Assembly: GCA_027326205.1 (NCBI GenBank)
Contig: DAHWEX010000483.1
Span: forward strand, 1-35,818
DNA from: Actinomycetota bacterium
Lineage (GTDB): Bacteria; Actinomycetota; Actinomycetes; Streptosporangiales; Streptosporangiaceae
Length of the DNA stretch: 35,818 bases
Direction of reading: 5' to 3'
The first letter of the stretch is position 1, and the number at the start of each line of letters is the position of its first letter. Below, in pieces: positions 14,692-32,610 of this stretch. The notes under the pieces are model-generated. The model saw only the letters and a list, made by a program, of their open reading frames with translations. It did no database searches and was not told the origin of the DNA. The position numbers were made by a program, and so were the translations under genes.

Positions 14692-15690
14692 TCAGGAGTG
14701 GTGGCTGGTGTCGGCCCGGAGCAGCTCGCCGATGCGCTCGCCGGCCGCGACGACCGCGGCCGCGTGCAGCCGGCCGGGGGAGCGGGTCAGGCGCTCGATC
14801 GGGCCCGAGACGGAAACGGCGGCCAGCACCTTGCCGCCCGTGCCGCGCACCGGGGCGGAGACCGAGGCCACGCCGATCTCCCGCTCGGCGGCGCTCGACG
14901 CCCAGCCGCGCCGCCGCACGCCCGCGAGCGTGGTGGCGGTGAACTTGGCACCGCGCAGGCCCCGGTGCATCCGCTCGCCTTCCTCCCAGGCGAGCAGCAC
15001 CTGCGCCGCCGAGCCCGCGGTCATCGGCAGCGCGGCGCCGATCGGCACGGTGTCCCGCAGCCCGCTCGCCCGCTCGGCGGCGGCCACGCAGACCCGCACC
15101 TCGCCGCCTCCCCTGCCCCCGGCGTAGCGGTACAGCTGCGCGCTCTCCCCGGTGACGTCGCGCAGCTGGATCAGCACCGGCTGGGAGACCGCGAGCAGCC
15201 GGTCCTCGCCGGCCGCCGCGGCGAGCTCGGCGACCCGGGGGCCGAGGACGAACCGGCCCTGCACGTCCCGCGCGAGCAGCCGGTGGTGCTCAAGGGCGAC
15301 CGCGATCCGGTGCGTGGTGGGACGGGCCAGCCCGGTCGCCGCGACGAGCTGGGCGAGGCTCGCGGGCCCGCCCTCCACGGCGGCCAGCACGGAGACGGCC
15401 TTGTCGAGCACCCCCACGCCGCTGTTGTTTCCCCCGGGGGAGTCCCTCCCCCGTCGCCCCCGCGCCGGGGCTTCGCCCCGGGACGGCGTCTGCGGCGCCG
15501 AGTCTGTGTCTTCCCCGGGGGCCGTCCCCCCGGTGACCCCCCCGGGTACGGGGGAGTCCCTCCCCCGTCGCCCCCTCGCCGGGGCTTCGCCCCGGGACGG
15601 CGCCTGCGGCGCCGAGTACGTTTCCGGTGGTTGCCGTTGGCGGTCCGCTGGAGGGAGGACCCTGCGGGGTCCCTGCGGTGAGTTGTCCAT
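14692..15690 (-). CDS. ndgR: IclR family regulator, NdgR/LtbR-like, with a low-complexity N-terminal insertion
   Basis: Divergent from leuCD; SGVGVLDKAVSVLAAVEGGPASLAQLVAATGLARPTTHRIAVALEHHRLLARDVQGRFVLGPRVAELAAAAGEDRLLA. ATG at 15690 encodes MDNS, followed by about 83 repeat-derived residues. Confidence 0.88.
   Translation of the reverse strand: MDNSPQGPRRVLPPADRQRQPPETYSAPQAPSRGEAPARGRRGRDSPVPGGVTGGTAPGEDTDSAPQTPSRGEAPARGRRGRDSPGGNNSGVGVLDKAVSVLAAVEGGPASLAQLVAATGLARPTTHRIAVALEHHRLLARDVQGRFVLGPRVAELAAAAGEDRLLAVSQPVLIQLRDVTGESAQLYRYAGGRGGGEVRVCVAAAERASGLRDTVPIGAALPMTAGSAAQVLLAWEEGERMHRGLRGAKFTATTLAGVRRRGWASSAAEREIGVASVSAPVRGTGGKVLAAVSVSGPIERLTRSPGRLHAAAVVAAGERIGELLRADTSHHS
15436..15617. repeat. 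Two 68-bp GC-rich direct repeats (15436-15503 and 15550-15617)
   Basis: gggggagtccctcccccgtcgcccc(c/t)(g/t)... cgccggggcttcgccccgggacggcg(t/c)ctgcggcgccgagt twice, 2 mismatches by eye, 114 bp (38 codons) apart; encoded as SRGEAPARGRRGRDSP twice in the ndgR-like ORF. Confidence 0.95.
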
Positions 15691-15694
15691 AATG

Positions 15695-15721
15695 TGATAT
15701 TGCTGTCTCAAATGCTGAGAC
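15695..15721. promoter_or_regulatory. Putative NdgR-type operator 1 (adjacent to ndgR start)
   Basis: TGATATTGCTGTCTCAAATGCTGAGAC containing inverted repeat GTCTCA-aatgc-TGAGAC (15705-15721). Confidence 0.7.
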
Positions 15722-15777
15722 GAATGGGCAACTGGCTCGGGTGCTCGTGACCGTGGGCGGTAGTATCGCTCATGTAC

Positions 15778-15804
15778 TGATACTGCCGTCTCAAATCGTG
15801 AGAT
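15778..15804. promoter_or_regulatory. Putative NdgR-type operator 2 (upstream of leuC)
   Basis: TGATACTGCCGTCTCAAATCGTGAGAT; 19-bp segment matches operator 1 with 2 mismatches, inverted repeat TCTCA-aatcg-TGAGA. Confidence 0.7.
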
Positions 15805-17276: not shown

Positions 17277-17999
17277 ATGGAACCGTTCGTTACGCACACC
17301 GGGCGCGCCGTGCCGCTGCGGCGCACCAACGTCGACACCGACCAGATCATCCCGGCCGTGTACCTCAAGCGGGTCACCCGCGAGGGGTTCGGCGACGGCC
17401 TGTTCGCCGCCTGGCGCGAGGACCCGTCGTTCGTCCTGAACCAGGAGCGCTACTCCGGCGCGACGATCCTCGTGGCGGGCACGGACTTCGGCACCGGGTC
17501 GTCGCGCGAGCACGCGGTCTGGGCACTCCTCGACTACGGGTTCCGCGCGGTGATCGCGCCGCGGTTCGGCGACATCTTCCGCAACAACGCCACCAAGGCG
17601 GGCCTGCTCCCGGTGGTGCTCCCGGAGAAGGTCGTCGCGCTCATCCAGGACGCGTCCGAGGGCGTGCCGCCGGCGCAGGTCACGGTCGACCTCGACGCCC
17701 GCGAGGTGCGGGTCGTCGGCGGCGGCCTCGCCGAGGACCTGGTGGAGCCGTTCCAGATCGACGACTACACCCGCTGGCGCCTCATGGAGGGCCTGGACGA
17801 CATCGGCCTGACCCTCCGCCACGAGGACCAGATCTCCGCCTTCGAGGCCACCCGCCCGTCGTTCCTCCCGGCGACGGTGTTATCTCCCGGGGGAATGATC
17901 CCCCCGGGGACCCCCAAATCATGGGGGAGACTGTCTCTCCCCCCGGGGGCCGTCCCCCGGTCCCCCCGATCACGGGGGGAGACTGTCTCTCCCCCGTAG
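17277..17999 (+). CDS. leuD: 3-isopropylmalate dehydratase small subunit, with repeat-derived C-terminal extension
   Basis: [67 protein letters not shown]; expected end near RPSFLPATV, then [39 protein letters not shown] from the GC-rich repeat. Confidence 0.97.
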
Positions 18000-18014
18000 C
18001 CCCCTCGCCGGGGC
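17883..18014. repeat. GC-rich mosaic repeat copy at the leuD 3' end
   Basis: tctcccgggggaatgatccccccgggg (17883-17909) identical to 29854-29880; contains two palindromic gggggagactgtctctccccc units (about 17923-17944 and 17974-17995) and ccccctcgccggggcttcg shared with the 15.4-15.6 kb copies. Confidence 0.9.
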
Positions 18015-18027
18015 TTCGAGTCCGCTG

Positions 18028-18073
18028 ATGGCGGATCGTTGGGAGCAACCCGTTGCTCTCAACGATCCGCCAT
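18028..18073. terminator. Long near-perfect palindrome downstream of leuCD (possible terminator or repeat)
   Basis: ATGGCGGATCGTTGGGAGCAAC-cc-GTTGCTCTCAACGATCCGCCAT: 22-bp arms, 1 mismatch (G:U capable), 2-nt centre. Confidence 0.75.
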
Positions 18074-18374
18074 CTCGCGTTGGGGGCGCTCAGCCGCGGC
18101 CCCCCGGGTACCGGACCGAGCCTGCCGCGCCGGAGCCGCGCCGGAGCCGCTGTCCGCGCACCCGCTCTCACCAGGCACGATACCTGTCCGAAATGTCATG
18201 AAATATCCGGTCGGCATCGAAAAACCGCCTCTGAAAAGGCCCGACACGCCGGGCAATATTCGCTGGGGTTATTGTGTAGTCGGGCTTGATCGCCTAATTT
18301 CGGGCTGGTCAGGGGTCGCGGCCCAGGCAAGAAGCCGCGAGCGCGGCCTCCCGTGGGGGAACGCAGGAGTGAAT

Positions 18375-29371: not shown

Positions 29372-29377
29372 TGCCGC

Positions 29378-29869
29378 GTGGCGCGAGTGGTTTGCCCTGG
29401 TTCGTTCGACCCGGTGACGAACGGTCACCTGGACATCATCGGCCGTGCAGCCGGCCTGCATGACGAGGTGATCGTCGCCGTTCTCATCAACATCACCAAG
29501 AAGACCCTGTTCACGGTCGACGAGCGGGTCGAGATGCTGGGCGAGGTCACCCGCGGCTACGGCAACGTCCGGGTGGAGCGCTTCCACGGCCTGACCGTGG
29601 ACTTCTGCGTTGCGAACGGCGTCAACATGATCGTGAAGGGCCTGCGGGCGGTCAGCGACTTCGAGTACGAGATGCAGATGGCGCAGATGAACTACCGGCT
29701 CGCCAAGATCGAGACGATGTTCATGACGACCAACCCGCAGTACTCGTTCCTGAGCTCTAGCCTGGTCAAGGAGGTCGCCAAGTACGGCGGCGACGTCAGC
29801 GGCCTGGTGCCGGAACCAGTACTCGGCCGTCTGCACACCCGCCTCGCTGTATCTCTCCCGGGGGAATGA
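29378..29869 (+). CDS. coaD: Pantetheine-phosphate adenylyltransferase
   Basis: [87 protein letters not shown]. Confidence 0.97.
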
Positions 29870-29961
29870 TCCCCCCGGGGCCCCCTCGCCGGGGGCTTGG
29901 CCCCGGGACGGCGCCCGCCGCGCCGTGTGCGTATCTGGTGGTTGCGGCTGGCGGTCCGCGG
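29854..29961. repeat. GC-rich mosaic repeat copy at the coaD 3' end
   Basis: tctcccgggggaatgatccccccgggg (same as 17883-17909) followed by ccccctcgccgggggcttggccccgggacggcgcccgccgcgccgtgt...ggtggttgcggctggcggtccgc, clearly related to 15576-15650. Confidence 0.9.
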
Positions 29962-32218: not shown

Positions 32219-32279
32219 TCCCGGGAGCACGTGCCTCCCGCTGCTCATGATCACTTCTCACGATCAAGATCACTTATTG

Positions 32280-32329
32280 AAGATCTATGGCTTTTCGGCC
32301 CCCCTGGGGGCCGAAAAGCCATAGATCTT
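32280..32329. repeat. Perfect 50-bp palindrome (24-bp arms, 2-nt centre)
   Basis: AAGATCTATGGCTTTTCGGCCCCC-ct-GGGGGCCGAAAAGCCATAGATCTT. Confidence 0.95.
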
Positions 32330-32610
32330 GCCGGAAGGATCTTGCTTGGCGGCGGCGGCAGTCAGCGGAGGACCGTCTTGGCCACGGTGAACGGAAGGCG
32401 GTCTTGGCCGCCGCCAGCGGGGAGAGGCGTGTCAGCGGGCTGTCACGGAATATGGGGACGGACCTCCGGCTTGACAGGGAATATCGCGTCGGGACTGACA
32501 GGGAGTCGCGCGGAGCGCTAAGACTGGCGGAGCGTCAGAACTGGCCGGGCTAGGACTGGCGGCGCTGGAACTGCCGAGGAGCGGTCGCCGCGTGGCGGCC
32601 TGGAGGTGCC

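Follow-up and report, generated by a model that had tools for sequence, protein, structure and literature searches.

The best-known in-frame selfish repeats of essential genes are those of Rickettsia, which are usually explained by genome decay combined with drift. In actinobacteria, the mycobacterial interspersed repetitive units, which are 50–100 bp long, are located at gene junctions and overlap gene ends; to our knowledge, they do not occur as dispersed in-frame insertions inside conserved enzymes. According to the summary in PMC10969869, the Rickettsia palindromic elements (RPEs) are multi-copy sequences of about 150 bp that are found in frame in unrelated housekeeping genes and are absent from the orthologues (Ogata et al., 2000, 2002). 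The GTAG/CGTC REPs and REP dimers are hairpin repeats of 20–40 bp with RAYT transposases; they are often located beside stop codons, and some lie inside ORFs, including tRNA synthetase and DNA repair genes (Di Nocera et al., 2013, PMC3733652). Prokaryotic MITEs are short, non-coding and dispersed, and are presumably mobilised in trans (reviewed in PMC10969869). No actinobacterial precedent was found in the open-access literature searched.

The locus described here is located on a window of 35,818 nt, which is one whole contig (G000:C325) of a fragmented draft assembly (6.16 Mb, 830 contigs, 93% complete). It contains a gene for an NdgR-like regulator that is divergent from leuC and leuD, which is the NdgR/LtbR arrangement. 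Among named NdgR proteins, the closest come from Nonomuraea, Microtetraspora and relatives and from the metagenome assembly of a bog actinomycete, which makes an origin in the Streptosporangiales most likely. The features of the window that bear on the analysis are as follows.

14692–15690, minus strand: insert-bearing CDS of the ndgR/ltbR-like IclR-family regulator, 332 aa (Pfam HTH_IclR, 2.7e-10, and IclR_C, 3.1e-19; orthologue starts MDN(S)SGVGVLDKA).
15431–15679, plus strand: whole insert, 249 bp or 83 codons, between native ndgR codons 4 (TCA) and 5 (AGC) (comparison with 80 named and about 30 further orthologues).
15507–15648, plus strand: full-length element copy with four hairpins (covariance model R1, 119.4 bits, E=3.8e-36, model positions 1–144).
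15431–15506, plus strand: truncated tandem copy without most of hairpin A and the 3′ tail (76-nt direct repeat; R1 match at 15421–15511, model positions 13–121, 57.5 bits).
15649–15679, plus strand: short remnant that includes a small hairpin (GGACCC-TGC-GGGGTCC), located between the 3′ end of the element and the start-codon side of ndgR (sequence inspection and folding).
15695–15803, minus strand: tandem-duplicated ndgR operator/−10/ATG region (26-nt direct repeats at 15695–15720 and 15778–15803; congener sequence).
17879–18018, plus strand: second element copy, rearranged, at the 3′ end of leuD (R1, 50.1 bits, E=1.3e-13; leuD translation).
29372–29866, plus strand: CoaD-like cytidylyltransferase gene (Pfam CTP_transf_like, 6.1e-24).
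29846–29959, plus strand: third element copy, lacking hairpin B, at the 3′ end of the cytidylyltransferase gene (R1, 79.5 bits).

A sequence-only reading of this locus had proposed that the native N-terminus of NdgR is split in frame by 249 bp, and the translation indeed reads MDNS-[83 aa]-NSGVGVLDKA on the minus strand. All 80 of the 80 named orthologues start with MDN(S/T)SGVGVLDKA or with at most a few extra residues, and none of them carries the extension. The relatives, too, have an intact N-terminus or one that deviates by a few residues, with the sister species G006 as the exception, so that a shared extension does not explain the insert. The same reading had described two 68-bp copies with two mismatches and a spacing of 114 bp. 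The repeats stand (15435–15510 and 15549–15624, spacing 114, with 97% identity over 69 nt and 93% over 76 nt), but the insert is not made up of two 68-mers only: it consists of a full element of about 145 bp, a truncated tandem copy and about 30 bp more, with the element in the orientation opposite to ndgR. Simple tandem slippage within ndgR was ruled out, because the repeat unit is dispersed throughout the genome. In all likelihood, the insert represents tandem copies of a dispersed, GC-rich, multi-hairpin, non-autonomous element that is selfish or near-neutral, the in-frame intragenic survivors of which would be translated.

In an AlphaFold2 model of NdgR, residues 1–89 have pLDDT values of about 30–37 and the winged helix of about 90. 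The insert-bearing regulator thus probably has a disordered N-terminal arm of almost 90 residues preceding an intact winged helix. The ATG upstream of the insert keeps the same short distance from the operator and the −10 element as in the relatives, and therefore a leaderless start at that ATG is suggested, from which the arm would be translated. In ndgR only, the insert could instead be a 5′ leader, with a start at the downstream GTG at 15417 (V92), a near-native protein and hairpins that act in the mRNA. That GTG is two codons past the insert and has a GGGGGA 12 nt upstream, few native residues would be lost, and Di Nocera et al. (PMC3733652) note that REPs at the N-terminus are frequently non-coding. 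The conserved spacing of the upstream ATG and an ndgR frame that is open over all 249 bp, without a stop, make this unlikely, and a leader cannot account for the internal copies in other genes. It is for those internal copies (PheT, ValS, Mfd and others) that the case for translation, as judged from sequence, appears firm, because conserved protein is present on both flanks. The duplication of the operator/−10/start region is common to the own genome and G006 and is absent in the other congeners; the upstream ATG of the duplicated region opens an ORF of about 21 codons with a stop inside the second operator.

A search of the own genome with the 76-mer identified 49 places, and the best copy outside of the window is 96% identical (E=2e-29). 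A covariance model built from own-genome copies yielded 52 matches. Several copies are located at contig ends of the assembly. The element, as delineated from aligned copies with their flanks, is about 145 bp long and contains four hairpins, A to D. It starts with 5′-(GC)TGTATTT, hairpin A (CCCGGGGGAATGATCCCCC), ACCCCCCAAATCA and hairpin B (YGGGGGAGTCCCTCCCCCR). After TGCCCCCTCGC follow hairpin C (CCGGGGCTTCGCCCCGG) and, separated from it by GA, hairpin D (CGGCGCCTGCGGCGCCG); the tail ends with GGTCCGCT. The ends, 5′-GCTGTATTT..GGTCCGCT-3′, are conserved. No clear inverted repeat is present at the termini, and in the empty-site comparison the flanking loops, like the sequence at the ndgR junctions, vary too much between species to mark a target-site duplication. 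Three own-genome copies (G000:C89:4344, C213:3984 and C507:14672) carry the GGACGA core that is typical of other species; two subfamilies may coexist in this genome.

The hairpins show compensatory changes. In hairpin B, eight copies have C-G as the outer pair and eight have T-A, GC and CG are swapped at two pairs of hairpin C, and A-T replaces G-C in two copies of hairpin D. Pairing was retained in 96.7% of the cells, compared to 91.9% after shuffling and less than 59% when the partners were slid. Cells with double changes numbered 23, compared to 7.9 in shuffles, and the covariation score was 0.122, compared to 0.060; none of 500 shuffles reached either value, a significance that is overstated because the copies are mutually related, whereas the slid controls retain this relatedness. 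An Rfam search of 77.5 kb from six element-bearing sources returned tRNA only and no match to the element above the gathering score. No GTAG/CGTC tetranucleotide is conserved at the hairpin foot in 22 aligned copies. The Y1_Tnp/RAYT domain (PF01797) had no matches in the own 93%-complete assembly, while control genomes were positive.

Conserved genes also harbour the element in frame. Own-genome copies interrupt PheT (twice), ValS, Mfd, a protein of the amine oxidase family and a luciferase-like protein, in each case with recognisable protein on both sides. The orthologous sites of ValS, PheT1, PheT2 and the amine oxidase are empty in congeners, and these positions are variable loops; the alignment for Mfd comprised own-genome loci only. 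When placed on solved structures, the insert in ValS takes the place of about four residues of Thermus ValRS (1gax), between positions 505 and 510, and those in PheT map to 208–218 and 700–704 of M. tuberculosis PheRS beta (7k98); all of these are short loops. In relatives, elements are in frame in FtsK/EccC, prolyl oligopeptidase, a GT2 enzyme, a 4Fe-4S protein, GltB, DnaX, a MenF-like chorismate-binding enzyme, PknG, IlvB, CarB, an ABC exporter and a biotin-dependent carboxylase. One frame is common among copies in the opposite orientation, but the ValS, PheT1, NdgR and PrfA/B copies use other frames. In G006, a different Gly/Leu-rich stretch is present at the ndgR codon 4/5 position (L112), and a Gly-rich stretch unrelated to the element is present at the amine-oxidase insertion site (L237). 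Apparently, both positions accept insertions of unlike origin.

Other copies are located at gene boundaries. The leuD gene runs into its element copy and thereby gains a C-terminal extension of about 35 aa, with the stop codon at 17997–17999. Directly after leuD and the element, a near-perfect hairpin is present at 18025–18075 (GGCGGATCGTTGGGAGCAACC..GGTTGCTCTCAACGATCCGCC), possibly the native leuCD terminator. At gene 3′ ends, 21 copies have the orientation of the gene and 7 the opposite one (13 and 2 in the own genome), whereas at gene starts the opposite orientation predominates (9 versus 3). The hairpin-A end tends to face the gene and to abut the stop codon; in other species, the opposite boundary is less sharply defined. 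The window also includes an inverted repeat at 32265–32344, with 39-nt arms that are 82% complementary and 2 nt apart; its AT content is far above that of the flanking DNA, and it has no relation to the element.

The covariation of the hairpins and the prevailing gene orientation of the 3′-end copies are what would be expected if the element were retained for a function of its RNA or DNA structure, for example as a terminator, mRNA stabiliser or attenuator, with the coding insertions as by-products. We consider this quite improbable. The element has no T-run and no Rfam match, the intragenic copies occur in both orientations (6 the same as the gene, 13 opposite), and the sites are empty in congeners where this was checked. 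Moreover, the covariation could just as well stem from a mechanism of mobility that depends on hairpins.

For around 100 copies, the coding potential of each flank was scored separately, without using the frame. Both flanks were coding on the same strand for 22 copies, and 14 of these were in frame without a stop. The remaining eight, which were out of frame, all turned out to be gene-gene junctions, e.g., ilvN-ilvC and response regulator-kinase pairs. Thus, 14 of 14 intragenic copies are in frame and stop-free, whereas length alone predicts one in three. Five more intragenic in-frame cases (NdgR, PheT2, prolyl oligopeptidase, DnaX and PknG) fell below the flank threshold and were excluded from the test, having been noticed via their frame. 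An open reading frame by itself was discarded as evidence of coding: with its high GC content, the element lacks stops in several frames, and the criterion applied was homology on either side of the copy. Spanning ORFs at CoxS/CoxL (L176) and elsewhere proved to be gene junctions or gene ends, and not intragenic copies.

Conserved enzymes that are interrupted by strongly structured RNA bring to mind an insert that is removed after transcription or bypassed in translation, as in introns or byp-like systems. This is very improbable, as neither removal nor bypass would call for the preserved frame and the lack of stops in every intragenic copy found. The inserts also vary freely in length and sequence, and no constant flanking codons were seen. 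Because frame-keeping would be unneeded under splicing or bypass, the internal copies are more readily understood as translated. That the insertions are artefacts of assembly or binning at a repeat has a negligible probability, even though the assembly is fragmented and several contigs end in the element, since in many genes the frame of one and the same gene continues on both sides of the insert, the copies differ from one another in sequence, and independent assemblies of other species contain diverged versions.

The compared genomes are draft assemblies, mostly of uncultured organisms. The covariance model had nine matches in the sister species G006, three of them stronger than E=1e-34, and weaker matches in G002, G003, G009, G020, G021 and others. 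The versions in relatives are species-specific: they have a core near TTTCCCCCGGGGGGACGACCCCCCCGGTGACCCCCC in common, hairpin B varies, and the tail is different. Of 347 genomes of the order, 62, from 23 of 70 genera, contain the exact motif CCCGGGGGRAYGAYCCCCC, and none contains the reversed control. The 396 genomes sampled from other parts of the phylum include two with the motif, which occurs once in each. In the genomes sampled, the family is restricted to this lineage, with its motif almost missing from other members of the phylum. The exact-motif scan of viral contigs gave three isolated matches, none with a full element by eye. One of these contigs, from IMG/VR (L302, position 14049), continues with GGAACCCCCCGGTG after the motif and could carry a related element near the contig end.

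The proposal of an in-frame, RPE-like repeat insertion in a high-GC actinomycete was thus borne out and is broader than initially envisaged, with a multi-copy family, many housekeeping genes and diverged versions across the order. We infer that the element is mobile and near-neutral, and would spread through the genome as a non-autonomous sequence. As several of its frames lack stops, copies with a length that is a multiple of three could survive in genes at surface loops, linkers and termini, where they would be transcribed and translated as disordered Pro/Gly/Arg/Ser-rich segments. Selection on the host proteins would purge frame-breaking copies, so that the surviving intragenic copies would be in frame, and the other copies would gather beside stop and start codons. 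More tentatively, at somewhat less than even chance, the family may represent a hitherto undescribed class of structured mobile elements, without a RAYT or a recognisable insertion sequence, that has spread family-wide in species-specific versions and, in a lineage of large genomes, repeatedly adds disordered translated segments to essential proteins.

Since such a family is present in actinomycetes with large genomes and a presumably free-living habit, in-frame repeats do not seem to depend on genome reduction. The many natural insertions probe how well loops tolerate added sequence in enzymes that include ValRS, PheRS, acetolactate synthase and carbamoyl-phosphate synthase. How the element spreads, and what becomes of the peptides that it inserts, can be tested directly. 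Gene callers and start-site predictions will encounter long non-native segments in these genomes.

Like intragenic REPs, the element is a hairpin repeat that is often located next to stop codons and in some cases inside ORFs; unlike REPs, it is about 145 bp long, has no conserved GTAG/CGTC tag, and no Y1 transposase was found. With MITEs it shares its short length, its dispersal and, presumably, mobilisation in trans, but no clear terminal inverted repeats or target duplications were found and no parental insertion sequence was identified. Mycobacterial interspersed repetitive units are likewise actinobacterial and located at gene junctions and ends. RPEs are the closest in behaviour: the element, too, is multi-copy, hairpin-forming and in frame in conserved genes, the orthologous sites of which are empty. 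However, it is restricted to an order of actinomycetes, has a GC content of 70–80% and forms four separate hairpins. In addition, RPEs have one conserved-peptide frame per family, whereas the element uses both orientations and several frames, and switches frame by internal indels. The likeness would be one of behaviour and does not imply common ancestry; because of the composition, sequence homology is not expected. The element appears to be a variant of in-frame structured repeats and not an RPE.
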